Assembly: GCA_902554765.1 (NCBI GenBank)
Contig: CACDPY010000005.1
Location: 1 to 54,096, forward strand
Reading direction: 5' to 3'
Source: an uncultured Pelagibacteraceae bacterium
GTDB taxonomy: Bacteria; Pseudomonadota; Alphaproteobacteria; Pelagibacterales; Pelagibacteraceae
Length of the DNA stretch: 54,096 nt
Shown one piece after another: positions 1,778-34,627 of the stretch. Every line of letters begins with the position of its first letter. The stretch's first letter is position 1. A program made the position numbers and the translations under genes. The notes beneath the pieces were generated by a model. The model did no database searches. It saw nothing but the letters and a program-made list of their open reading frames with translations, and was not told where the DNA came from.

Positions 1778-2942
1778 TCCTTGGAAATGGAATATGGGTT
1801 ATAAATTTTCCACCATTTTTAATATATAGACGTTCTTTATCGAAAATTTCAGATTTGAAATTCCAGGCACCTAAAAACACATAATCAGCATCTTTATTAG
1901 TAAGTTTTTTATATTTTTTTATTCTGATTTTTGTTCCAGGTAAGTATTTGTTTATTTTAAATGAAGTTGTGTCGTAAAAAAATGAAATATGTTTATTATT
2001 TATATTACAATAATTTAAAACAGTGCATGATTTTGCTGTAGCACCATAACCAATAACTTTTTTATCATAAATTTTATTAAATATTTTTAACAATTGTTTT
2101 TTTGATTTTTTAACTTTATTTGCAAATTTCACATAAGTTGAAAATTTTTGTAGTCCATATTTACGTTCTTTTTTCAATTCTCTTTCGACACTTTTATTAA
2201 TTTTAAAAAAAGAATTATCTTTATTTTTTATATAATAACGATTTGAACCACCATGAGTTATGATATTTTCAATATCAAAAATTTCTAAACCAAATTTGTC
2301 TAAAATATTTTTTAAAGCTATAGTAGAAAAAACATAAACATGTTCGCAATAAAACTGATCATAAGCAACATTTTTAATACAATTTAATAATGATGGATCT
2401 TCCAAAATTAATATTCCTTTTTTGGAAAGAGATTTTTTAATTGCGCCAAAAATTTCAGAATAATTTGTGATATGACTTAATGTATTAGCAGAGTAAATTA
2501 CATCTACTTTTTTTTCTTTAATTATTTTTTTTGATAATCTTAAATTCCAATATTCAGAATATACTTTATATCCCTTTTTTTTAGTTATACGTGCCAAATT
2601 TTTACATGGTTCAACTCCAACAATTTTTTTGGGATCAAAATTATTTATAAAAGCTCCATCATTACAACCAATTTCAACTATGAATTTTGGTTTAAATTTT
2701 TTTTTAATTTTTTTAGCTAATTCCATAAAAGAAGTTTTCATAGTTTTTGACTCCGAAGATTTATAAGGATAATTTTTGTTAAACATTTTTTCTTTTGGAA
2801 CTGTGTTGAGTATAGAAACTAAGTAATTTTTTGGGTTAAAACCTAAAATTAGTTTAAATTTTTTTTCTTTCAAATGAAGATTTTTTCTTAAAACATAAGA
2901 ATTCGCAAGTGGTTGTAGTCCTAGATCTAAAAATTTTTTCAT
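1770..2942 (-). CDS. Sugar C-methyltransferase (class I SAM; TylCIII/NovU-like) lacking the N-terminal zinc cysteines
   Basis: This 390-residue protein has the three-part layout of nucleotide-sugar C-methyltransferases: an N-terminal segment starting KKFLDLGLQPLANSYV, a central SAM fold with motif I in FIVEIGCNDGAFI (about residues 86-98) and a C-terminal domain with GYGATAKSCTVLNYC (near residue 297). Relatives methylate carbon 3 or 5 of dTDP-4-keto sugars. The family normally begins with a CxxC zinc site before LDLG and a second CxxC after it. Here the protein starts at LDLG, the second pair is absent (FKLILGFNPKNYLV), and an in-frame stop lies four codons upstream of the ATG, so the zinc module is truly missing. 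It overlaps the upstream GT2 gene by 4 bases. Confidence 0.8.
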   Translation of the reverse strand: MKKFLDLGLQPLANSYVLRKNLHLKEKKFKLILGFNPKNYLVSILNTVPKEKMFNKNYPYKSSESKTMKTSFMELAKKIKKKFKPKFIVEIGCNDGAFINNFDPKKIVGVEPCKNLARITKKKGYKVYSEYWNLRLSKKIIKEKKVDVIYSANTLSHITNYSEIFGAIKKSLSKKGILILEDPSLLNCIKNVAYDQFYCEHVYVFSTIALKNILDKFGLEIFDIENIITHGGSNRYYIKNKDNSFFKINKSVERELKKERKYGLQKFSTYVKFANKVKKSKKQLLKIFNKIYDKKVIGYGATAKSCTVLNYCNINNKHISFFYDTTSFKINKYLPGTKIRIKKYKKLTNKDADYVFLGAWNFKSEIFDKERLYIKNGGKFITHIPFPRII

Positions 2943-3745
2943 AAATATTTCTTAAATATAAATATTATAAATTCTATAATTCCTAATATTTTTGCTAAAT
3001 TAATATTTGAACTTCTAAACTTTAATAAAACTAGATTTAAAATTAGCAAGAAAATATTTTGAGCAAATTTCCTTAGAATTTTAATAGTTTTTACTTTTCC
3101 TCCTTTATAGTCATATAATAGCTCACCAAAAATAAAATTTTTGTTTCTAATAAGATCAGTTCTATATCCACTTAATGAAGAATTACCATTTTGATGAACA
3201 GCTTTCGATTTTTGAGTTTCATATATCTTAAAATTAGATTTCTGAATTCTTCTTGATAAATCAATGTCCTCCCAATAAAAAAAGAAGTTTTCATCAAACA
3301 TACCAATTTTCATAAATTTTTTTTTTTCGCAAAAAAAAGTGGCTCCGATCATCCTTGATACTTCAATCTCTTTAACAAGTTTATTAGGTTTTTTTTTATT
3401 GAGTAAGGGTACTGCTATTATTGCATTTTTTTTGTGCCTAATAATAGTTTTTTTTAACTCCAATATTGAGTTTTTATTTATATTAACATCAGCTTGAGTG
3501 CAAAAAAAATATTTTGTTTGAACCTTTTTTACCAAAGTATTAATCCCTTTCGCATATCCATTATTTTGATTAGTTATTGAATAATTTTTTATGTTCGGCA
3601 AAATTTTTGTTAATTTTTTTTTGAAATTTTTGTCATTGCTTTGATCTAATACTACTACTTTAAATTTTTTGAAAACTTCAAAATTTTTTATTAATTTCGA
3701 AGGTGTTTTATATAATAGAAGAATAATTGTAATATCAGATATCAT
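2939..3745 (-). CDS. Family 2 glycosyltransferase (rhamnosyltransferase-like)
   Basis: The 268-residue protein shows a GT-A fold: an early strand TIILLLYKTP, VVLDQSND, the acceptor-side NNGYAKGIN segment, a DxN/DxD-like FFCTQADVNIN (about residues 102-112) and the late EDIDLSRRI motif (near residue 169) that supplies the catalytic base in rhamnosyl- and galactofuranosyl-transferases. The C-terminus is hydrophobic (NIFLLILNLVLL and IIEFIIFIF) and probably holds it at the inner membrane. Its stop overlaps the start of the C-methyltransferase in an ATGA arrangement, so the pair is likely one operon that makes and transfers a modified sugar. Donor and acceptor cannot be read from sequence. Confidence 0.82.
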   Translation of the reverse strand: MISDITIILLLYKTPSKLIKNFEVFKKFKVVVLDQSNDKNFKKKLTKILPNIKNYSITNQNNGYAKGINTLVKKVQTKYFFCTQADVNINKNSILELKKTIIRHKKNAIIAVPLLNKKKPNKLVKEIEVSRMIGATFFCEKKKFMKIGMFDENFFFYWEDIDLSRRIQKSNFKIYETQKSKAVHQNGNSSLSGYRTDLIRNKNFIFGELLYDYKGGKVKTIKILRKFAQNIFLLILNLVLLKFRSSNINLAKILGIIEFIIFIFKKYL

Positions 3746-3808
3746 TATGATTTAAAGTATTATATTAAATTTTAAATTTTTGAAGTATTATAAATCAACA
3801 TTAACTAA

Positions 3809-4357
3809 ATGGCGAAATTAATTTTAGGTCCCTCGGGTTCTGGCAAATCTACACTCATTAATAAGAGGTTTGTTGGATTTAAAAATTTAATCTTTGGTTA
3901 CGAACTTGAAAACAAAAAATATGATTTTTTGAAATTTTGGAAAAAAACAAAAATTTCTAAGAACTCTATTGTTCATTATAATATTTTAAATGATCTATCT
4001 AAACAGAATTATAACTACGATGAAGAGAAATTTCTACAAAACGATAAATTATTAAAAAAAATTTTAAGTTATAATAAACTTTTCGACGAAGTAATTATTT
4101 TAGTTACACCAATTAAGGAATTAATTTACCGAGCAGCATCCAGGGAAAAAGTTGAGGATAATATAACAGATAAGTATGATAATGAATTCTGGCTTAATCA
4201 TATTAAAAAAACAAACTTTGAAAATTTATATAAAGAATTATTCTTAATTTTAGATGTTAATAACCTCAAATATGAAATTTTATATTCATCTTCTAATGAT
4301 TTTAGAAAAACAAAAAAAGATTATATAAAAAAAAATTTAGCGGGTATATACGAATAA
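3809..4357 (+). CDS. Uncharacterised P-loop NTPase/kinase-like protein
   Basis: I cannot name this 182-residue protein. It begins with a textbook Walker A motif, GPSGSGKST at residues 7-15, directly after a hydrophobic strand, as in small nucleotide or metabolite kinases and ABC ATPases. A strand ending DEVIILVTP (about residues 91-99) could hold the Walker B position, followed by an arginine-containing stretch RAASREKVED that may act as a lid. No ABC signature, helicase motif or kinase family signature is evident. It is transcribed divergently from the GT2 gene and ends just before tRNA-Ser, inside the polysaccharide region. A role in modifying a sugar or lipid is possible but unsupported. 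Confidence 0.6.
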   Translation: MAKLILGPSGSGKSTLINKRFVGFKNLIFGYELENKKYDFLKFWKKTKISKNSIVHYNILNDLSKQNYNYDEEKFLQNDKLLKKILSYNKLFDEVIILVTPIKELIYRAASREKVEDNITDKYDNEFWLNHIKKTNFENLYKELFLILDVNNLKYEILYSSSNDFRKTKKDYIKKNLAGIYE

Positions 4358-4358
4358 A

Positions 4359-4448
4359 TGGCGGAGAGAGTGGGATTCGAACCCACGGTACCTTTGACAG
4401 TACACACACTTTCCAAGCGTGCGCCTTAAACCGCTCGGCCATCTCTCC
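4359..4448 (-). tRNA. tRNA-Ser (anticodon GGA)
   Basis: Read on the minus strand, a 7-bp acceptor stem GGAGAGA/TCTCTCC encloses a D arm, an anticodon arm CACGC-TTGGAAA-GTGTG with GGA in the loop, a long variable arm typical of class II serine tRNAs, and a TTCGAAT T-loop. CCA is encoded (bases 4359-4361). GGA reads UCC and UCU serine codons. The gene sits between the plus-strand P-loop gene and the minus-strand oxygenase gene, flanked on both sides by accessory genes. A tRNA at such a position is a common integration point, although no integrase or repeated tRNA end is visible. Confidence 0.97.
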
Positions 4449-4453
4449 TAGAT

Positions 4454-5332
4454 TTAATCATCTTGATTCTCTCGTTTTTTTTTTGATCTTCCTGTTCTAA
4501 ATAGTTTTTTTTCAAACTTTTTGATATTTTGATAAATATTTAAACTTCTCAAGAATCTTTTTAATGTTCCTGAATTTTGATCTGTTTCATTATTTTGTCC
4601 CAAACGATCCTTAAAGTAGGTTGTGTTTTTAGAAAACATTTTATCAATCTCATTTATTGGCCTTCCTTTTGTATAATAATAAGTTGCTATTGATTTTCTC
4701 GACATATTGTTTGGGCAATTTAATGGGTCAGGATGACCATGGTTGCTATTATCTGTTGTAGAAAATATTACCATTTTATTAAAAATTGGTGAAACTTTTT
4801 CTCTACAGGAAGTCATTTCTTTATCCCAGAATTCAAGATGGCCGCCATACTCCTCTTTCCAGTCTTTATTTAGATATATTAAAACATTTAAACGTCTGTC
4901 AAGATCTAAGCTGGGATGTTTATTAAAATCTGAATGAATTTTTAGTAAACCACCTTTTTTTATTTCATGAAGACCTCCACCATTTAACTCAAAATCTGGA
5001 ATAAGTTTTTCCTGAATGCTAGTTATACGTTGTAAAAAATTTAAAAAAAAATCAGAATTTAAAAAATCAAATAATTTTTTGATATTATTTGGAAAATTTT
5101 TATATTGGTTGTTTGCAAATTTAACTTCGTTTTTATTATCATAATTTCTTGTTTTTTTTTGTTCTGCTAAATTTGGAAATTGATTTAACACGTCATTTAA
5201 AAATTCTTTACTAAAAAAATCATCAATTATTATAAAGGGGAAAGGATTAGCGTTTAAAAATCTTTCTTTATTTTGAAAAATAAATTTTTCAACATCTTTT
5301 AATTTATCATTAATAATATTTTCAATTTCCAT
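4454..5332 (-). CDS. 2-oxoglutarate/Fe(II)-dependent oxygenase (prolyl hydroxylase-like)
   Basis: The 292-residue protein contains the double-stranded beta-helix core of 2OG-Fe(II) oxygenases. The iron ligands are visible as H133-x-D135 in LLKIHSDFN and a distal histidine in NSNHGHP (H198 or H200); the 2-oxoglutarate-binding arginine is R212 in MSRKSIATYYY. RRLNVLIYLNKDW and YGGHLEFWD are typical of the P4Hc subgroup. Such enzymes hydroxylate small molecules, sugars or proteins. The C-terminus after residue 240 is basic and asparagine-rich, with no recognised domain. It is the last of three accessory genes (methyltransferase, GT17-like, oxygenase) trailing the lepA operon, which suggests modification of a surface glycan; the substrate is unknown. 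Confidence 0.82.
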   Translation of the reverse strand: MEIENIINDKLKDVEKFIFQNKERFLNANPFPFIIIDDFFSKEFLNDVLNQFPNLAEQKKTRNYDNKNEVKFANNQYKNFPNNIKKLFDFLNSDFFLNFLQRITSIQEKLIPDFELNGGGLHEIKKGGLLKIHSDFNKHPSLDLDRRLNVLIYLNKDWKEEYGGHLEFWDKEMTSCREKVSPIFNKMVIFSTTDNSNHGHPDPLNCPNNMSRKSIATYYYTKGRPINEIDKMFSKNTTYFKDRLGQNNETDQNSGTLKRFLRSLNIYQNIKKFEKKLFRTGRSKKKRENQDD

Positions 5333-5341
5333 AATAAAATA

Positions 5342-6148
5342 CTAAATTATCCATTCTTTTAATTTCTCTTTATTATTTAAAATATAATCGGGATAACTCT
5401 CATCTATGTTCACCCTGTTATACAAGTGCCCTCGATCAAATAAGTCAATTTTGGCATTTATTTTTTGCTTAATAATATCTAAATTTGAGAATTTTTCATT
5501 ATCCCATGAAGTCTCAGCTAAACTCTTAAATTTTTTTTCGATTTCTTGTGGTGTTAAAAGATAACTAAAATGCCATCCTCCATTCTCAATAATCTGAATA
5601 TTTCTTTCTTTATCAATTCTCCAAAAAGGATATTTCAAATTTTTTCCTAGCACTTTATGTCTTAACCAATCAACAGATTTTAAATGTTTCTTTTTACATA
5701 CCCTGGTACCTTCCCAAGGATTTTCATGTGTGTTTAGAAGGTTTAATTTATATGAAAATATTTTCTGAGAAAAAATTCCATACTTTTTTTTTAAATCAAA
5801 ATTTTTAAGAATTTTAGGATTTGGGATTTCGTCTGGATCTGAAAACATGACAAAATCATCATTCTCTACTTCATCTAAGTTTTTTAATATATGTTCTCTC
5901 TGAATAGCCTGATTTTGCCACGGATCACTTTTATCCGGGAACTCCTCTTCGATTATTATATGTTTTACATTCCTATAATCTTTATATTTCTCTTTATCAA
6001 AATTGATTTCTTTTTTATTTCCTCTATGATCATAAATAGACTCACATATTAAAAATTCATCAACTATATCTTTGAGAATATTAAATCGTAAATCAAAATG
6101 GCGATTTTCTTGAAAAAAAGTAATGGTATCAATTATTTTATTTTTCAT
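5342..6148 (-). CDS. Glycosyltransferase family 17-like protein
   Basis: The 268-residue sequence follows the layout of GT17 (beta-1,4-N-acetylglucosaminyltransferase-like) proteins: an N-terminal IIDTITFFQENRHFDLRF, then EFLICESIYDHRG, a WQNQAIQREHI segment, and the acidic FSDPDEIPNP motif (about residues 101-110) that probably binds the metal-sugar nucleotide. A late GGWHFSYLLTP stretch (about residue 190-200) is also characteristic. Bacterial members usually occur in glycan-modification islands. It lies 1 base from the methyltransferase gene upstream and about 10 bases from the oxygenase gene downstream, so all three are probably on one transcript. The exact sugar transferred cannot be told. 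Confidence 0.75.
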   Translation of the reverse strand: MKNKIIDTITFFQENRHFDLRFNILKDIVDEFLICESIYDHRGNKKEINFDKEKYKDYRNVKHIIIEEEFPDKSDPWQNQAIQREHILKNLDEVENDDFVMFSDPDEIPNPKILKNFDLKKKYGIFSQKIFSYKLNLLNTHENPWEGTRVCKKKHLKSVDWLRHKVLGKNLKYPFWRIDKERNIQIIENGGWHFSYLLTPQEIEKKFKSLAETSWDNEKFSNLDIIKQKINAKIDLFDRGHLYNRVNIDESYPDYILNNKEKLKEWII

Positions 6149-6149
6149 T

Positions 6150-6824
6150 TTAGATCATTTCTATTCCATCATTAAAACTTACCGTTCTCATTATTTCTTT
6201 GTAATTATTATAAAAAAATTTGAACTTTAAATTTTTGAATGAACTGTTTCTAATATCTAAAATGTTTGGATTTTTTCTTTTTTTTATAATACCCAAACCT
6301 TGGTCCGCTAAAATCGTAAATGTATCAAAATCGTTCCAAGTACGAGCTTCAACTATTGCCTTCCAAACATCCCCATTCCAATTATATCTCGTTCTTGGTA
6401 CCCTCTGATGGCCTATACTTGAAGGCAGGCAATCATGAAGTATTATTATTCCATTTTCATTCAAAACTTTTATTGAGTTTAATATATCTTTTATTACTTG
6501 ATCATAAATATGAAGACCGTCTATAAAAATACAATCGAATTTATCAGAATTTTTAATAAAAAAATCATCACTTGTACCTCTAAAATTACCACCATTTAAT
6601 GGATCTACACCAATTTTATCTATATCTATTTTCTTAAAAACTTCATCCTGATTGCATCCAATTTCTAAATACTTTTTATATTTATTTTTTTTAATAACAA
6701 AATCAATTAAATCTAGACGATTTTTTTTATCAAAATTATAATTAATTTTTTTTGAAAATTTTTCTGAAAAAAGTAAATGATATAATTTATTAAAAAAAAA
6801 TTCTTTATTTCTATTTTTTTCCAT
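6150..6824 (-). CDS. Class I SAM-dependent methyltransferase (Methyltransf_24 type)
   Basis: This 224-residue protein has a SAM-binding motif I variant KYLEIGCNQDEVF (about residues 54-66), an acidic end of strand 2 in IGVDPLNGG, and the FDCIFIDGLHIYDQVIKDI block (about residues 95-113) that is diagnostic of the Methyltransf_24 group. IIILHDCLPSS follows. Members often methylate hydroxyls of sugars or antibiotics. The usual third glycine of motif I is replaced (EIGCNQDE), which is common in this subgroup. It begins 4 bases after lepA ends, with no room for a promoter, so this accessory gene is read out of the translation operon. Substrate unknown; a glycan role is inferred from the GT17-like neighbour. 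Confidence 0.78.
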   Translation of the reverse strand: MEKNRNKEFFFNKLYHLLFSEKFSKKINYNFDKKNRLDLIDFVIKKNKYKKYLEIGCNQDEVFKKIDIDKIGVDPLNGGNFRGTSDDFFIKNSDKFDCIFIDGLHIYDQVIKDILNSIKVLNENGIIILHDCLPSSIGHQRVPRTRYNWNGDVWKAIVEARTWNDFDTFTILADQGLGIIKKRKNPNILDIRNSSFKNLKFKFFYNNYKEIMRTVSFNDGIEMI

Positions 6825-6828
6825 TTTG

Positions 6829-8640
6829 TTAATTTTTATCTTTATTTATCTTAAGTACTCCAATAAATGCTTCCTGAGGAATTTCTACTCTACCAAATTG
6901 TTTTGATCTTGCTTTTCCTTTTTTTTGTTTTTCTAAAAGTTTTCTTTTTCTGTCAGTTGCTCCACCCCCATGAATTTTAGTTAAAACATCTTTTTTAAAG
7001 CCTTTTATTGTTTCTCTTGCAATAATTTTACCTCCTATAGCTGCTTGAACGGGTATCATAAAATTATGCCTCGGTATCAAGTCTTTAAGTTTTTCACAAA
7101 CCTCTCTGCCTGTTCTTTGAGCAAAATCTTTATGTATCATCATAGCCAAAGCATCAACTGGTTCACTATTTACTAATATACCTAATTTTACTAAATCTCC
7201 TTCCCTGTGACCAATTATTTCGTAATCGAAACTTGCATAACCACTAGTCATAGATTTAATACGATCATTGAAATCAAAAACTACCTCATTTAAAGGTACT
7301 TCATAACTTAATACAGCTCTATTTCCTGAATAAGTTAAATTTGTTTGTATTCCTCTTTTGTCTTGGCATAGTTTGATTATAGAACCTAGAAATTCATCTG
7401 GTGTGATAATTGTGGCTTTAATCCAAGGTTCTTCTATTGATGATATTAATGTTGGATCTGGAAGACTTGATGGGTTTTGTAAATCAAGAACTGTTCCATT
7501 ATTTAAGTTTACTTTATATACAACACCTGGTGTAGTTGTAAGTAAGTTTACATCAAATTCTCTTTCTAATCTTTCCGTAATTATTTCCAGATGTAATAAT
7601 CCTAAAAATCCACACCTAAAACCAAGCCCTAATGCTGAAGATGACTCTGCTTCAAATGAAAAACTTGCATCATTTAATTGTAGCTTTGCAAGACCATCTT
7701 TAAGTTTTTGATATTCAGAACTGTCTACAGGAAATAAACCACAAAATACCACAGGTTTACTAGGTTTAAATCCAGGTAAAGGATCTAGCTTTGGTTTTGT
7801 TGCATCACAAATTGTATCTCCCACTTTTGTTTCAGATAAAACTTTAATTCCTGTTGTAATGAAGCCAAGTTCACCAGTATTAAGCTCATTTATATCTTTT
7901 GCTTTTGGTGTAAAAACTCCAACTTTTTCAACTATATAATCTTGATTGGTTGAAAGCATTTTAATTTTCATATTTTTAGTTATTTTACCATTTATAACTC
8001 TCACCAAAATAACAACACCCAAATAAGTATCATACCAGCTGTCGACCAATAGACATTTTAAATCATCTTCTGGGTTTCCTTTTGGACCTGGTAATTGTTT
8101 AATAATTTGTTCTAATATTTCTTCAATACCTTCACCTGTTTTTCCAGAACATGGAACTGCATTTTCTGTATCTATACCAATTACATCTTCAATTTGCTTA
8201 TTTGTTTTCTCTAAGTCTGAAGCAGGTAAATCTATTTTATTTAATACTGGAATAATTTCATGATTAATATCCAATGCTTGATAAACATTTGCTAATGTTT
8301 GAGCCTCTACTCCTTGGGTGCTATCAACGATTAATATTGATCCCTCGCATGCATAGAGTGATCTACTAACTTCATAACTAAAATCTACATGTCCTGGTGT
8401 ATCTATAATGTTCAAAATATAATTTTTTCCATTTTTAGCTTTATAATTTAATTTCACTGTTTGGGCCTTGATAGTAATGCCCCTTTCTCTCTCAATATCC
8501 ATGGAATCTAATACCTGTGATTTCATTTCTCTATCGGTTAAGCCACCACACTTATGAATAATTCTATCGGCTATAGTTGACTTACCGTGATCAATATGTG
8601 CAATGATTGCAAAATTTCTTATGTTATCAATAGTGCTCAT
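6829..8640 (-). CDS. lepA: Elongation factor 4 (back-translocating GTPase LepA)
   Basis: At 603 residues the protein matches the usual EF4 length. G-domain motifs are AHIDHGKST (G1, residues 14-22), [15 protein letters not shown] (G3) and NKIDLP (G4). The distinctive C-terminal domain is present, including the basic end [24 protein letters not shown] and QEAFIGVLK. LepA acts on ribosomes, promoting back-translocation or assisting initiation and assembly of the 30S subunit, mainly under stress. It follows pheT by 6 bases in the translation operon and is followed within 4 bases by an accessory methyltransferase. ATG start. No irregularity seen. Confidence 0.98.
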
Positions 8641-25913: not shown

Positions 25914-28900
25914 TTATAATTTAGTTGGCATCGGTTTATTAATATCAATTTTATATTTTTTTATTGCTTCAGATGCATGTTTGGAAGTAATAAGCTGTTC
26001 TTTTGCTAAAATACTAAGTCCATAAGTAACAATATGTTCCTTATCAACTTCAAAAAATTTTCTTAAGTTTTTTCTTGTATCACTTCTGCCAAATCCATCT
26101 GTACCTAAAGAATAAAAACTTTTATTTATAAAAGGTCTAATTTGATCAGAATTCATTCTCATATAATCTGACGCTGCTAATATTGGGCCCTCTGTTTGAC
26201 CCAAACATTCTTCTACATAAGATTTTTTAGGTTTTTTTTCTGGATTTAAAAGATTATATCTTTCTACTTCTAATCCATCCTTTCTCAATTCATTAAAACT
26301 TGTAGCACTCCAAATTTCACTATCTATTTGATATTCGTTTTGAAGTATTTCAGCACCTGCAATCATTTCTCTTAAAATTGCCCCAGAACCTACAAACTGA
26401 ATTTTCGTCTTTTTATATTTGTTAAATTCTTTTATCTTATACATTCCTCTCAGTATTCCTTCTTCACATGACTTATCTTTTGGAATTGCTGGATGAGGAT
26501 AATTTTCATTCATGGTTGTTATGTAATAAAAAACATTTTCTTTTTTTTCGTGCATTCTTTTCAAACCATCTCTAAAAATTATTGCCAATTCATAATGAAA
26601 TGTGGGATCATATGAAATACAATTAGGTATGGTTGATGCCATTAAATGACTATGACCATCTTGATGCTGAAGTCCTTCACCTGCTAAAGTAGTCCTTCCT
26701 GCTGTAGCACCAATTAAAAAACCTCTTGATTGACTATCTGCTCCTGCCCAAGCAAAATCTCCTATTCTTTGAAATCCAAACATTGAATAAAATAGATAAA
26801 TAGGAATCATTTCTATATCATGGTTAGTATAAGAAGTTCCTGCAGCTATCCAAGATGACATTGCACCAGCTTCTGTAATTCCTTCCTCTAAAACTTGTCC
26901 ACTTTTTTCTTCTCTATATGAACTTAGTTGAGCTGAGTCTTCGGGTTCATACTTTTGACCTTCGTGAGCATATATTCCTACCTTCTGAAAAAAACCTTCC
27001 ATACCAAAAGTTCTTGCCTCATCAGGAATAATTGGCACTAATCTTGGAGCTACATTTTTGTCTCTAAGAAGGCTAGTAAGCATTCGTACTAAAGCCATAG
27101 TAGTGGACATTTCTTTTTTACCAGTAGAATCTTTCATGTTATCAAAAATATCTTTTGGAGGAGCTTTAATAGGTTTAGCGTAAGAGGTTCTCTCTGGTAT
27201 AAAGCCTCCAAGCTTGAGCCTTCTTTCTTTAATGTATTTTATTTCTGGAGATTTTGGATCAGGTTTATAATATTCAATGTTTTTTACTTGACTATCAGTC
27301 AATGGAACATCAAACCTATCCCTGTAATACATGAGGTCGTCAATATCTAATTTTTTAGTTTGATGAGTTGTATTCACACTTTCTCCACTTTTACCCATTC
27401 CATAACCTTTGATAGTTTTAGCAATTATAACTGTTGGACTTCCCACATTTCTAGAAGCTTGATCATAGGCAGCAAAAACTTTATGTGGGTCATGGCCACC
27501 TCTATTTAATCTCCAAATATCTTTATCAGACAGATTTGATACCAATTCTTTTGTTTCTGGGTACTTACCAAAAAAATTTTCTCTTACATACGCACCATCT
27601 CTTGCTTTCATTGCCTGATACTCACCATCAACTGTTTCATTCATTGTTTTTACGAGATGACCTGTTTTATCATTAATTAATAATGAGTCCCAATAAGATC
27701 CCCATATGACTTTGATTACATTCCATCCTGCACCTCTAAAGATTCCTTCTAATTCTTGAATTATTTTTCCATTTCCTCTTACTGGACCATCTAATCTTTG
27801 TAGATTGCAATTTACAACGAAGATTAAGTTATCTAATTTTTCTCTAGCCGCTAAGCCTATAGCTCCTAAAGATTCTGGTTCATCCATTTCTCCATCTCCA
27901 AGAAATGCCCATACTTTTCTTCCTTCATCTTTAATCAAACCTCTGTTAATCAGGTACTTCATATATCTTGCTTGATAAATTGCTAACATTGGCCCTAATC
28001 CCATAGATACTGTAGGGAATTGCCAGAAGTTTGGCATTAACCATGGATGAGGATAAGAAGATAATCCTCCAGGATTAACTTCTTGTCTGAAACTATCAAG
28101 TTGTTTTTCATTAAGTCTCCCTTCAAGAAATGCTCTTGCATACATTCCGGGTGCACTGTGTCCCTGAAAATAAACTAAATCCCCACCGAACTTATTATTC
28201 TTCGCTCTCCAAAAATGATTCATTCCTACATCATACAATGTTGCAGCAGACGCAAACGTTCCTATATGCCCTCCAAGTTCAGGAAATTTTTTATTAGCTC
28301 TTACAACCATTGCTGCTGCATTCCATCTAATTAATGACCTTATTCTTCTCTCTATATTTTGATCACCATTTGACTTTTTTTCTTCGCTAACTGGAATTGT
28401 ATTTATATAAGGAGTGTTTTGAGTATAAGGAATATTAGCACCCTTCATATAAGCTTTGTTAATTAATTCTTTTATTAAATAATGAGCTCTTTGGTTACCA
28501 TCTTTTTCAATCACTGCAGACAAAGACTCAAGCCATTCATTGGTTTCTAATGGATCTAAATCACCATCTTTAGCAAATTGGATAGTAGTTTTTTCTTTTT
28601 TTTCTATTTGCAGTTTTTGTTCTTGATCTTTTTTTAATGCACTTTCTGCTTCTTTTATCAAATTTTCAGTATCCTTTGGGATAACTTTGGATTCAGTATC
28701 TTTTGAAACAACTTGTGGTGAAGAAGATGATTGATTAGAATTTGATATATCAAGAATTAAATCCCCCTTAGAAACTTTATCTCCAACCTTTACTTTTATA
28801 GAAACTATCTTACCTGAAAAAGTTGATGGTATTTCAACACTAGATTTATCGCTTTCAATAGTAATAACTGGATCATTCTTTTCAATTTGCTGACCTTCTT

Positions 28901-28970
28901 TAACTAATAACTCAATTACTTCCACGTTTTCAAAGTCACCGATGTCAGGAACTAATAATTTTTCTGTCAT
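25914..28970 (-). CDS. aceE: Pyruvate dehydrogenase E1 (homodimeric) with an N-terminal lipoyl domain
   Basis: The 1018-residue protein begins with a complete lipoyl domain (residues 2-76), with the lipoylated lysine K42 in ESDKSSVEI, followed by a charged serine/lysine linker (about 77-130). The rest is an AceE-type thiamine-diphosphate E1: RRIRSLIRWNAAAMV, the GDG motif FLGDGEMDEPES, a NCNLQRLDGPVRGNGKI stretch and the C-terminal transketolase-like part. It decarboxylates pyruvate and would reductively acetylate its own lipoyl arm, which then delivers the acetyl group to AceF. Because AceF has no lipoyl domain, the fusion must carry this function. E3 is not in the window. Confidence 0.97.
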   Translation of the reverse strand: MTEKLLVPDIGDFENVEVIELLVKEGQQIEKNDPVITIESDKSSVEIPSTFSGKIVSIKVKVGDKVSKGDLILDISNSNQSSSSPQVVSKDTESKVIPKDTENLIKEAESALKKDQEQKLQIEKKEKTTIQFAKDGDLDPLETNEWLESLSAVIEKDGNQRAHYLIKELINKAYMKGANIPYTQNTPYINTIPVSEEKKSNGDQNIERRIRSLIRWNAAAMVVRANKKFPELGGHIGTFASAATLYDVGMNHFWRAKNNKFGGDLVYFQGHSAPGMYARAFLEGRLNEKQLDSFRQEVNPGGLSSYPHPWLMPNFWQFPTVSMGLGPMLAIYQARYMKYLINRGLIKDEGRKVWAFLGDGEMDEPESLGAIGLAAREKLDNLIFVVNCNLQRLDGPVRGNGKIIQELEGIFRGAGWNVIKVIWGSYWDSLLINDKTGHLVKTMNETVDGEYQAMKARDGAYVRENFFGKYPETKELVSNLSDKDIWRLNRGGHDPHKVFAAYDQASRNVGSPTVIIAKTIKGYGMGKSGESVNTTHQTKKLDIDDLMYYRDRFDVPLTDSQVKNIEYYKPDPKSPEIKYIKERRLKLGGFIPERTSYAKPIKAPPKDIFDNMKDSTGKKEMSTTMALVRMLTSLLRDKNVAPRLVPIIPDEARTFGMEGFFQKVGIYAHEGQKYEPEDSAQLSSYREEKSGQVLEEGITEAGAMSSWIAAGTSYTNHDIEMIPIYLFYSMFGFQRIGDFAWAGADSQSRGFLIGATAGRTTLAGEGLQHQDGHSHLMASTIPNCISYDPTFHYELAIIFRDGLKRMHEKKENVFYYITTMNENYPHPAIPKDKSCEEGILRGMYKIKEFNKYKKTKIQFVGSGAILREMIAGAEILQNEYQIDSEIWSATSFNELRKDGLEVERYNLLNPEKKPKKSYVEECLGQTEGPILAASDYMRMNSDQIRPFINKSFYSLGTDGFGRSDTRKNLRKFFEVDKEHIVTYGLSILAKEQLITSKHASEAIKKYKIDINKPMPTKL

Positions 28971-30624: not shown

Positions 30625-31050
30625 ATGTCCAAAGAATTTGAACAAATTAGTTTAAAACCAGGTTTCATGAAACATAACGGTGGTGTTATGTTTAGAAATA
30701 TTTCTGATGGCGAATATGAATTTAAATCTACTATTAATGAAAATCATCTAAACGCTGCTGGAATTACGCATGGAGGATACTTGTCAGCTTTAGTAGATGC
30801 TGGAGCAGGAACCGCAGCACATCGCTCAGCAGATAATGCGCCTTGTGTAACTATTTCGTTAGACTTAAAATTTATAGGAGCCTCAAAAGTAGGTGACGAA
30901 ATAATTGGTAATGTAAAAATTCTAAAAAAAACGAAAACATTAATATTTTTATTCTGTGAATTAAAATGTAATGACAAGATCATTACCTCGGCATCAGGGG
31001 TTTGGAAAATTTTAAAAGTTAAACCTGTAGATTTAGAACCTAGTGGATAA
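30625..31050 (+). CDS. PaaI-family acyl-CoA thioesterase (hotdog fold)
   Basis: The 141-residue protein has the single-hotdog layout of PaaI/YigI thioesterases. The signature H49-G50-G51 in AAGITHGGYLSALVDAGAG starts the central helix, and VTISLDLKFIGASKVGDEIIG forms the second conserved strand pair. Such enzymes release CoA from aromatic or medium-chain acyl-CoA esters and form tetramers in the cytoplasm. It starts 7 bases after the small membrane peptide. Its last 18 bases overlap the end of the convergent TRAP permease remnant, a sign that the remnant was pushed up against it. Substrate not predictable. Confidence 0.88.
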   Translation: MSKEFEQISLKPGFMKHNGGVMFRNISDGEYEFKSTINENHLNAAGITHGGYLSALVDAGAGTAAHRSADNAPCVTISLDLKFIGASKVGDEIIGNVKILKKTKTLIFLFCELKCNDKIITSASGVWKILKVKPVDLEPSG

Positions 31051-31389
31051 ACTCGTTCTTCTAGAGTTAAAATAACCAAAGATAAATAACAAAAATATTG
31101 CTAATGGATAAATAATTATTTTTGAAGGTCTATCATCATTTTCTACCTTAAACTCACTTACATAATCTCCCATTTCAAACCCACTTTTTTTAGCATCCCC
31201 ATTCCATTTAAGTGTATCAATAATGAATTTTTCATTTTCTTTAATAATACTCATTCCATATTCCTCTATATTATATTCTTCTTGAAAAGTATTTTTCTTA
31301 ATAACAAATAATTTATATCTTTCTCCATACTCAGTTATTCTTGTTACTTTTAATTGAACTTCTTTTTTTGGATCTAATTTAATTTTATT
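31033..31389 (-). pseudogene. Remnant of a TRAP transporter fused permease, C-terminal DUF3394-like tail
   Basis: The minus-strand frame open from 31389 to the stop at 31033 reads KLDPKKEVQLKVTRITEYG, later FIIDTLKWNGDAKKSGFEMG, DRPSKIIIYP, then a single hydrophobic segment and NSRR. This matches the C-terminal soluble tail of fused TRAP permeases (DUF3394), where a FGSPAEKAGLD-like segment precedes RP and a final membrane helix followed by basic residues. The remaining 12 or more membrane helices that should come first are absent; the frame instead meets a stop at 31390-31392, inside a broken aminotransferase gene. An internal ATG (31254) could still give a 73-residue peptide. It is most likely a deletion relic. 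Confidence 0.7.
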
Positions 31390-31979
31390 TCAGATAAAAT
31401 TATTAAATTATATTTCTTGGCAACTTTACTTATTTCCTCTAAATTTTTGCAGATTTGTCCAGAAGGGTTATTTGGTGAATTTAAAAATAAAAGATAATTC
31501 TTTTTTTTATCTTTCAATATAACTTTCTCTATTTCAGATGCGGTAGGAAACCAGTTGTTCTCTCTTTTTGTTTGTATTGTTTTAATTTTATTTCTTCCTA
31601 TTATAGCTTGTGGGGCGTATGAAACCCAACTAGGTGCTGGTAAAATTATTTCGCCATCAAAGATTACATGTAATAAGAACATTAATTCTTTGGACCCGGG
31701 GCCAATAACCACATTTCCAGCATTATAATTATAATCCTTTTTTTCTGAAGTGTATTTTGCAACTGATTTTCTCAAATCAAACAGGCCCTGCATTGGTAAA
31801 TATTTATTTTGATGAGCATTAACTTTTAACTCATTTACTATATCATCTGGAACTTGAAATGGTGATTGACCAAAACCAAACTTAAAAATTTTATTTCCTT
31901 TTTCTTCTAACTCTCTTGAAATTTCATTAATTTTTAAAGTAGATGATGCCTCTAAGTTTTTAACGATATCTTTCAACAT
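31374..31979 (-). pseudogene. Truncated class I/II aminotransferase, N-terminal half
   Basis: From the ATG at 31979 the frame encodes about 195 residues of a fold-type I PLP aminotransferase (aspartate aminotransferase group): FKFGFGQSPFQVPDDIV, YLPMQGLFDLRKSVAKY, NVVIGPGSKELMFLL, PAPSWVSY and FLNSPNNPSG are in the expected order. Similarity stops in YNLIILS, where the family continues with DEIY; here the frame runs EIKLN and stops. The second half, which carries the PLP-binding lysine, is missing, so the product cannot be an active aminotransferase. Downstream sequence on the same strand is the tail of a TRAP permease in another frame. Confidence 0.85.
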
Positions 31980-32152
31980 TTAAATTTTTTAATTAATGTT
32001 ATAGAAATTATTCTAATTATGTTAGACTAACTTTTATTTATAACCATAATGAGAACTTTTTGTCCTCCGATTCGGTCATGTTTTAGTCTATTTTTGTTCT
32101 TTAACAATAACTACATCTGGTAGACAAAAAAAAAGGTATACCAAAGATAGAA

Positions 32153-34627
32153 ATGTCAAAAAATAAAATTACTGCAATTCTAGGTCCAACAAATACTGGC
32201 AAAACTCACTTAGCTATTGAAACAATGCTTTCTTTTGAAAGTGGAATGATTGGATTTCCACTAAGATTATTAGCTCGTGAAGTTTATGAAAAAGTTATAA
32301 AAAAAATTAATATCGAAAAGGTTGCATTAATCACTGGTGAAGAAAAAATAATTCCACCTAACGCTAAGTTTTTTTTATGTACTGTTGAATCTATGCCGAT
32401 TGATAAAGAATTAGATTTTGTAGCAATAGATGAAATACAAATGTGTGCAGATCATGAACGTGGACATATTTTTACTGATAGATTATTGAACATGAGGGGC
32501 AATAAACTAACGATGTTAATGGGTTCTAATACTATTAAAAAAATTATTTCAAAATTAGACGAAGATGTTGAATTTATTAATAGAGATAGATTATCTAAAC
32601 TTTCTTATGCGGGTCACAAAAAAATCTCTAGAATAAATAGGAAAACTGCAATCATAGCATTTTCAACAGAAGAAGTTTATGCAATTGCAGAATTAATCAG
32701 GAGACAAAAGGGCGGTGCCGCTATTGTAATGGGGTCTTTAAGTCCAAAAACAAGAAACGCACAAGTTGAATTATATCAATCAGGAGATGTAGATTTTTTA
32801 GTAGCAACTGATGCTATTGGTATGGGCATAAATATGGATCTAGATAATGTTTATTTTTCAAATTTAAAAAAATTTGATGGAAGAAAATTAAGAAGATTGA
32901 ATTTATCTGAAATTGGTCAAATTGCTGGTAGAGCCGGAAGATACTTAAATGATGGTAACTTTGGAATAACTGGTGAGTGTAAAGAAATTAATGCTGAAGA
33001 AGTCGAGCTATTGGAGAGTCATAAATTTGAGGAAATACGATCATTATTTTGGAGAAGTTCAAATTTGAATTTTGATAATCCTTATTCTTTAATCAAATCG
33101 CTTGATGAAAAACCTAATGAGGATTGGCTAAGAAAAATTTATGAACGTGAAGATGAAAAAGCTTTGAAATTTTTTCTGCGGGATGAGAATTTAAAAGACG
33201 TGGAGTTTAATAAAGAAAAGTTGAGTATTTTATGGGAGTGCTGTCAGATACCTGATTTTGTTAAAAAAACTTTCGGAAATCACTATGAGGTAATTGCAAA
33301 TGTTTTTAAATATTTAATTAGTAAAAAAGGAAAAATTACCAATGAATATATGCGACTACAACTAATGAAACTTGATAAATTGGAGGGAAATGTAGATTCT
33401 TTGTCAAATAGAATTGCAAATGTTCGGACTTGGTCTTATGTTTCTAATAAAAATAATTGGGTAGAAAATCAAAATTATTGGATTGAAAAAACTAAATTAT
33501 TAGAAGATAAACTTTCGGATAGACTTCATGAAGAACTTACTAAAACATTTATTGATAAGAGAGCCAGTGTTCTTGCGCGAGGTTTAAAACAGGATATGGA
33601 ATTTGATACAAAAATTTTAGAAAATAACGATGTTATAATTGATGGTCAATTTATAGGCAAAATAAATGGTCTTAAACTAGAACTTGACTTAAAAAAAGGG
33701 GCACTTGAAACTGATATTAAATCTCTTAAGAAAGCTGCAAGACAAGCAGTTGCACCAGAACTAGAAAAAAGAATTGGAATAATAATAGATACTAGTTTGG
33801 TTGAATTACAAAATGACTCTAAAATTTATTGGAATAAGGCTACAATCGGAAGACTATTACCAGGTAAAGACTACTTAAATCCCAATTTTGAATTAATTGT
33901 TGATGATATATTAGAAGAGAACCAAAAAATCAGATTAACAAAGTTTTTAGAAAAATGGATTAAAAATAAAATTAAAACAACTTTAAAAAGTTTAATTGAT
34001 CTTAAAGACCTCAAAGAAAAAAATTCTTCAATAAAAGCACTTGCATATCAGTTATATGAAAACAATGGTGTTCTAAAAAGAGACCAAGTTACAGAATATC
34101 TTAAAAATTTAGCTCAAAATGAAAGAAAAATTTTAAGAGAGCTTGGAGTTAAATTTGGAAGATATCACATTTTTTTACACAGACTAATAAAGCCAGAAGC
34201 CGTTTCTTTAAGAACTTTACTTTGGAAAAATTATCATCAAAAATATTTTGATTTACAGCCTCCAACCTTTGGCCTTAATTTTATAGATAATAAAAATCAA
34301 AAAAATAAAAATTTTATGCTACTTTGTGGGTTTGAAAAGTTTGAAAGTTTTTTTGTAAGAATTGACATTTTAGAAAGATTATTTATGCAAATAATTAATT
34401 CAAAATCCGAGAAAGAAATAAAAATGATACCAGAAATGTTAAATCTACTAGGGTGTAATAAAGATAATTTTAAAAAACTTTTACTTAGTATGGGTTATAG
34501 AATTATAGAAAAAAATGATGAAGTATTTTTTAAATACAGACCTAAGAAAAACAATAAAAAGATTTATGATAAAAAAATATCCAAAGAAAGCCCTTTTGGA
34601 ATTTTAAAAAATCTTAATCTTAATTAA
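32153..34627 (+). CDS. SUV3-like DExH-box RNA helicase
   Basis: The 824-residue protein has Walker A GPTNTGKT (residues 11-18), motif II DEIQ (residues 93-96), a motif III-like GSNT and a second RecA domain with FSTEEVYAIAELIR, ATDAIGMGINM and motif VI QIAGRAGR (about residues 258-265). This is the pattern of alphaproteobacterial relatives of the mitochondrial degradosome helicase SUV3. The long C-terminal part (about residues 330-824) is lysine-rich with no other clear domain. It likely unwinds structured RNA during decay or ribosome work. It is followed within 4 bases by a TerB-like gene and then fdxA and carD, suggesting one transcript. Confidence 0.92.
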   Translation: MSKNKITAILGPTNTGKTHLAIETMLSFESGMIGFPLRLLAREVYEKVIKKINIEKVALITGEEKIIPPNAKFFLCTVESMPIDKELDFVAIDEIQMCADHERGHIFTDRLLNMRGNKLTMLMGSNTIKKIISKLDEDVEFINRDRLSKLSYAGHKKISRINRKTAIIAFSTEEVYAIAELIRRQKGGAAIVMGSLSPKTRNAQVELYQSGDVDFLVATDAIGMGINMDLDNVYFSNLKKFDGRKLRRLNLSEIGQIAGRAGRYLNDGNFGITGECKEINAEEVELLESHKFEEIRSLFWRSSNLNFDNPYSLIKSLDEKPNEDWLRKIYEREDEKALKFFLRDENLKDVEFNKEKLSILWECCQIPDFVKKTFGNHYEVIANVFKYLISKKGKITNEYMRLQLMKLDKLEGNVDSLSNRIANVRTWSYVSNKNNWVENQNYWIEKTKLLEDKLSDRLHEELTKTFIDKRASVLARGLKQDMEFDTKILENNDVIIDGQFIGKINGLKLELDLKKGALETDIKSLKKAARQAVAPELEKRIGIIIDTSLVELQNDSKIYWNKATIGRLLPGKDYLNPNFELIVDDILEENQKIRLTKFLEKWIKNKIKTTLKSLIDLKDLKEKNSSIKALAYQLYENNGVLKRDQVTEYLKNLAQNERKILRELGVKFGRYHIFLHRLIKPEAVSLRTLLWKNYHQKYFDLQPPTFGLNFIDNKNQKNKNFMLLCGFEKFESFFVRIDILERLFMQIINSKSEKEIKMIPEMLNLLGCNKDNFKKLLLSMGYRIIEKNDEVFFKYRPKKNNKKIYDKKISKESPFGILKNLNLN

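Follow-up and report, generated by a model that had tools for sequence, protein, structure and literature searches.

A 54,096-nucleotide stretch of DNA from an uncultured Pelagibacteraceae bacterium, referred to here as the window, carries on its minus strand the first half of an aminotransferase (AT) gene directly abutting the last part of a TRAP transporter permease gene. The question raised by this locus is whether the two fragments were brought together by a deletion in a living cell, whether they were joined artificially before or during sequencing, or whether they are kept in this form for a function. The genome to which the window belongs, as contig 5, comprises 878,680 bases in 39 contigs, with 70.74% completeness and 0.04% contamination, and the features of the locus and its immediate neighbours are as follows:

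30625-31050, plus strand: thioesterase-superfamily gene (4HBT; PF03061), which bounds the variable site on the right and is present in relatives with the cassette as well as in those with an empty site
31033-31389, minus strand: remnant of a TRAP-TAXI fused permease, the last 118 codons and the stop, with the second half of DUF3394 (PF11874; alignment with relative G226)
31374-31391, minus strand: chance extension of the AT frame over the junction, EIKLN and then a stop (from the ORF and the sequence)
31389-31390, minus strand: putative deletion junction (point spacing and breakpoint homology measured in relatives)
31390-31979, minus strand: remnant of a class I/II PLP aminotransferase (PF00155), residues 1-196 (of 410 in G226) and two bases of codon 197 (aligned with relatives G175 and G226)
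32153-34627, plus strand: SUV3-like helicase gene (PF22527), which bounds the variable site on the left and is likewise present in relatives with and without the cassette

The junction and the two remnants

The ORF at 31374-31979 (minus strand) encodes the N-terminus of a class I AT (Pfam Aminotran_1_2, E 5.9e-23, profile positions 2-184 of 361), for which the best NCBIfam model is the aspartate aminotransferase NF041091, with a score below its cut-off. It can be aligned with intact relatives up to residue 196, the last residues being YNLIILS. At 31390|31389 the AT breaks off after this residue and permease codons begin directly in a different frame, giving 118 residues (NKIKLDPKKEV...) from 31389 down to 31033. 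A 113-residue part of this tail fits Pfam DUF3394 (PF11874; E 8.5e-14, profile positions 74-179 of 181), and the tail as a whole is equivalent to residues 661-778 of the permease in G226 and G175 (778 residues in each), with 79% identity to G226. The preliminary description had placed the end of the AT half at YNLIILS, with the permease tail in another frame, somewhere in 31365-31400, and the junction falls inside that interval.

The AT remnant has no counterparts of Asp197 and Lys228 (G226 numbering), which we take to be the PLP-binding and PLP-carrying residues by analogy with fold-type I enzymes. The earlier statement that the half with the PLP lysine was lost agrees with this, Lys228 lying in the missing part of the AT. 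The frame of the permease tail is open, closely preceded by a TGA, and has its first ATG at 31254; the 3' end of the tail overlaps that of the convergent thioesterase gene. The missing part of the permease (residues 1-660) contains the entire DctM domain (139-591). A hydrophobic stretch remains at the C-terminus of the tail (IIIYPLAIFLLFIFGYF, by eye), so that the description of a loss of all permease membrane helices is too sweeping.

Arrangement of the locus in relatives

The relatives compared belong to the SAR11 (Pelagibacteraceae, Pelagibacter, and Pelagibacterales). In G175 and G226, the genes for thioesterase (plus strand), TRAP permease (minus), TAXI protein (minus), AT (minus), and SUV3 (plus) follow one another, all intact and between the same neighbours as in the window (permease, 778 aa in both genomes; TAXI, 334 aa in G226; AT, 410 aa in G226 and 408 aa in G175). 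The points matching 31390 and 31389 are 3766 and 3773 bases apart in G175 and G226, respectively, and the spacing was 3761-3774 bases in all seven measured relatives holding both sides, a set outside which fall L078 and L079, two loci that begin downstream of the AT. Compared with this arrangement, the window is without the second half of the AT, the entire TAXI protein, and residues 1-660 of the permease. Both parts come from one ancestral operon, on the same strand and in the same order, and the interval between them is present in relatives. The single deletion put forward in the preliminary description thus agrees with the order and orientation of the AT, TAXI, and TRAP permease genes that are found intact at this site.

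A tree of the flanking genes (SUV3 N-terminus and thioesterase) was built by a quick method from 83 of the 118 loci offered, after dropping identical loci and those without most of either gene, and most of its inner branches are weakly supported. In this tree the window adjoins G175 (SH-aLRT 93), with G175 and G226 the nearest relatives by path. The intact operon in G175 and G226, together with the placement of the window beside G175, suggests that an ancestor of the window strain most likely carried the entire AT-TAXI-TRAP operon. Among the 48 window ORFs compared (used as queries, without short or overlapping antisense ORFs), the order from 6.8 to 53.4 kb was the same as in G226, and no other truncation was seen. 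Within the cassettes of the relatives, identity to the G015 reference was uneven for genes of one operon, at 84-99% for the TAXI protein vs 62-82% for the adjoining full-length AT.

Occurrence of the junction and of the intact cassette

The exact 36-base junction pattern had no matches in a genome contig collection from which the window's own or very near genomes may be absent. Of 399 genus genomes, 127 (the window's own among them) had a match of E 1e-10 or better to a 984-base query, and a 301-base query matched 190 of 397 family genomes; the two draws overlap, and each species is represented in the collections by a single genome. Among the matches listed for the genus, only the window's own covered both sides of the junction, and no other match did so among those listed for the family. 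The same fused arrangement as an intact gene in relatives, which the preliminary description had named as the outcome that would speak against it, did not appear among these matches. In the listed alignments to the 984-base query, those to the AT ended at positions 520-675 and those to the permease started at position 633 or beyond, with the junction at 658, and the overshoot past the junction was at most 17 bases on the AT side and at most 26 bases on the permease side.

The AT, TAXI, and permease genes were all full in 67 of 80 named AT loci (the best 80 of 117 kept). Twelve of the 80 were incomplete: in nine a contig end truncated the permease alone, in L131 and L117 the contig ends fell further upstream, and in L113 the AT alignment ended at residue 355 and the contig ended inside TAXI. 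No internal deletion comparable to that of the window was found in these 80 loci. In L126 (SAG-MED50; 7301-8303, plus strand), the TAXI gene is apparently frameshifted near residue 260, with a full AT and permease.

Two sets of candidate lesions were considered. Seventeen genus genomes with a single match (G000 aside) could have held further scars; a search with the full G226 cassette led to the rejection of 15, of which 14 were within 60 bases of a contig end and one (G023) was whole. The remaining two are G154, which has a decayed remnant, and G278, which lies outside the contig-end check. Permease stops were present in 35 of the 80 named loci, 34 of them at position 773 or 774 of the reference (G015, 783 long), where they were read as the natural end; in L151 the stops, at 726 and 728, adjoin a contig end. 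Searches of an open-access library yielded no paper on the AT-TAXI-TRAP operon or its site, as judged from the listings and the openings of abstracts, a result that cannot show that nothing is in print.

The site between SUV3 and thioesterase

The interval between the SUV3 and thioesterase genes differs in content amongst the relatives. It is empty in several genomes (e.g., G003, G033, and G012) and elsewhere holds AT-TAXI-TRAP, with or without an acetoacetate--CoA-ligase-like gene between SUV3 and the AT. Further states include the ligase without the AT (L107, from G005), a different TAXI-TRAP pair with 34-35% identity behind the ligase (L106, from G004; 4445-7366), and two TRAP systems in tandem (L103, from G024; 2072-7435, where the contig ends). 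The cassette label requires at least nine changes across the 83 rows of the flank tree, a count that involves unreliable shallow branches and states that recombination may mix, and the label 'AACSonly' covers G004 too, though this genome has its different TAXI-TRAP pair.

When the window ORFs from 8.6 to 53.4 kb were compared with the stretches fetched from G012, G003, and G033 (the last of which ends inside its first gene), the two remnants alone were without a counterpart. Because no other compared ORF sets the window apart from these cassette-free genomes, the AT-TAXI-TRAP cassette is, as judged from gene content, an accessory module in the genus, and many relatives are without it. The chances are about even that in Pelagibacter the interval between SUV3 and thioesterase serves as a fixed site for the exchange of uptake modules and that the module of the window has been caught mid-loss via an internal deletion, as opposed to clean excision or allele replacement.

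The intergenic sequence between the AT and SUV3 has been kept in the window and is similar to that of G175 and G226. Within the window, ~100 bases upstream of SUV3 (32050-32152, plus strand; GAGAAC...GATTCGG...GTTCTT) are strongly conserved, even in empty-site relatives. This stretch had no Rfam match at the gathering score, and no pair was changed on both sides in six sequences; it is possibly a SUV3 leader or promoter.

In genome G154 (L101; 4700-5232, minus strand), a stretch of ~50 codons of the same AT, interrupted by two in-frame stops, lies directly behind an acetoacetate--CoA ligase gene that is intact (5228-7192, minus strand). No SUV3 or thioesterase gene turned up in the 10 kb read around it. 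This stretch shows the appearance of an older AT remnant, and truncation of the AT has probably happened at least twice, in the window and in G154.

Age of the join and selection on the remnants

There are no stops or frameshifts in either fragment. The dN/dS of the AT was 0.051 vs G175 and 0.078 vs G226 (0.072 between G175 and G226), and that of the permease tail was 0.178 and 0.138, respectively (0.218 between G175 and G226), ratios that amount to a coarse test given the high dS (roughly 0.5-1.7). Of 197 AT positions, the last of which is the junction codon, 4 carry a residue unique to the window (range of 1-28 in 20 rows), and of 117 positions in the permease tail 7 do so (range of 1-8 in 21 rows). 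Of the two marks of a pseudogene that were considered, the loss of catalytic and transport parts was found (Asp197, Lys228, and the DctM domain are missing), and relaxed selection was not, with dN/dS and unique residues both within the range of intact relatives. The permease tail has two changes at otherwise invariant columns, the highest of 21 rows (0-1 in the others), which may be a weak hint of relaxed selection. By a rough bound from the AT, crude because of the high dS, selection could have been absent for no more than ~4% of the branch since G175.

As there are no stops and dN/dS is ordinary, the join is either very young or artificial. The preliminary description had called the event recent, and this holds to the extent that the fragments remain open with little or no extra amino-acid change, conditional on the join being real.

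Search for the lost genes elsewhere in the genome

A search with G226 DNA for the lost sequence elsewhere in the window's own genome (70.7% complete) found the kept tail and matches of 26 and 43 bases (E 2.3e-4). The same recovered genome had no match for the TAXI protein and five matches for TRAP_fused, all under the family cut-off, of which the two on contig C31 resemble, on reading, a permease of the DctM type. On that contig (L206; 904-2215, minus strand), what by eye is a second TRAP large permease (DctM type) is broken into two overlapping ORFs (215 and 228 aa), apparently through a frameshift near a T run that is either a sequencing error or a second lesion. Within the window, the ORF at 25914-28970 (minus strand), read as a pyruvate dehydrogenase E1, opens with what by eye is a lipoyl-like domain (VPDIGDFENVEVIE...), a domain that is usually on E2, and the G226 search finds a similar lipoyl-like stretch adjoining this ORF.

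Origin of the junction

Since the breakpoints lie 3.77 kb apart between the same neighbours in G175 and G226, one direct deletion accounts for the join, and we consider it likely that such an event, ~3.77 kb in extent, made the junction in a SAR11 (Pelagibacter) cell. The deletion would have removed the second half of the AT, the complete TAXI solute-binding protein, and some six-sevenths of the fused TRAP permease, leaving the AT N-terminus joined out of frame to the permease C-terminus. It would have taken place in a living cell, through end joining or replication slippage involving next to no homology, and both remnants would be non-functional. The loss would have been nearly neutral or favoured because the module appears dispensable. 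The preliminary description held that a transport system and a transaminase were lost in one step; the single deletion is supported, but the loss of 'a transport system' is too drastic a wording for an accessory operon.

As the strain's own lost flanks are gone, homology at the breakpoints was judged from relatives. In-register homology was 0-1 bp in all six relatives tested, and the strings shared by the breakpoints in six relatives were 4-7 bp within 15 bp and no longer than 10 bp within 100 bp. A short-word assembler misjoins only over a long shared string, and the lack of such a string at these breakpoints argues that a molecule bearing the join was very likely present in the sequenced DNA, either as the chromosome or as an amplification chimera.

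The main rival explanation follows from the second of these sources: a chimera formed during single-cell whole-genome amplification (or library PCR) would have entered the assembly, and the operon of the cell would be intact. We regard this as rather unlikely, with evidence on both sides. Many of the named relatives look single-cell by isolate name (SAG-MED and RIS_SAG explicitly, while some titles say MAG; the AG- and AH- isolate series are presumably single-cell genomes too), and the window genome, with 39 contigs at 70.7% completeness, is of similar look. Both fragments appear to be still under selection, as an artefact would give, and the junction was seen in no other genome among the matches listed (399 genus and 397 family genomes). 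These last two points count against a deletion, as the little decay suits an artefact equally well and no other sampled genome was seen with the junction; the lack of a comparable deletion in the 80 named AT loci counts against it too. Conversely, a chimera can strike anywhere, whereas the join lies wholly inside the variable cassette, and a random 3.77 kb deletion has a ~2% chance of falling wholly inside this 4.7 kb cassette for the compared stretch of 8.6-53.4 kb (more accessory DNA may lie elsewhere). A consensus assembly would presumably also require the chimera to dominate coverage. In E. coli single-cell data (PMC1855051), direct joins under 10 kb make up 11 of 475 amplification chimeras and complementarity is reported for 90.9% of such joins, so that a direct join under 10 kb with 0-1 bp of homology is a rare combination among the chimeras of that data set. 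The truncation of this AT in G154, seen as a remnant, shows that its loss by this route happens elsewhere too and favours a deletion.

That the junction is a stable remnant kept for a function, e.g., as a short AT-derived protein, is hardly credible: both fragments are open and conserved, and the AT-SUV3 intergenic sequence is kept like that of G175 and G226, but the AT stump has no matches of Asp197 and Lys228 (G226 numbering), the permease tail has a TGA just upstream, a first ATG at 31254, and no DctM domain, and the same arrangement is in no other sampled genome among the matches listed.

The direct deletion, then, looks like ordinary and very recent gene loss. If real, it is a gene loss observed very soon after the event in an ocean bacterium with a streamlined genome, in which one internal deletion cripples several genes together, so that an uptake module vanishes from a fixed site. 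The locus may also serve as a worked example of how a true deletion is weighed against an amplification artefact in a possible single-cell genome.

Comparison with known systems

The N-terminal half of the window AT fits the class I/II PLP-dependent aminotransferases (PF00155) and differs from them in being without the C-terminal half, including the stretch with Lys228. The transporter at this site in G226 is a TRAP-TAXI system (TIGR02122 TAXI protein and TIGR02123 fused permease with DUF3394), its proteins scoring far above both curated cut-offs (300.6 vs 84.35 bits for TIGR02122; 641 vs 320.65 bits for TIGR02123). In contrast, the window has only the last 118 permease codons, the genome as recovered yielded no TAXI protein, and the combination of a TAXI binding protein with a DctM-type fused permease by which such a system is recognized is thus missing from the window genome as recovered.

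With the chimeras of multiple displacement amplification (MDA), the junction shares two segments a few kb apart that have been joined, and it differs in its direct orientation and near lack of homology; the typical though not strict form in PMC1855051 is inverted, under 10 kb, and with at least 2 bases of complementarity, and the junction does not fit it. With a deletion-derived pseudogene in a streamlined marine genome, the locus shares what appears to be a simple deletion inside an accessory operon, and it differs in that its remnants show no clear decay and are still fresh.
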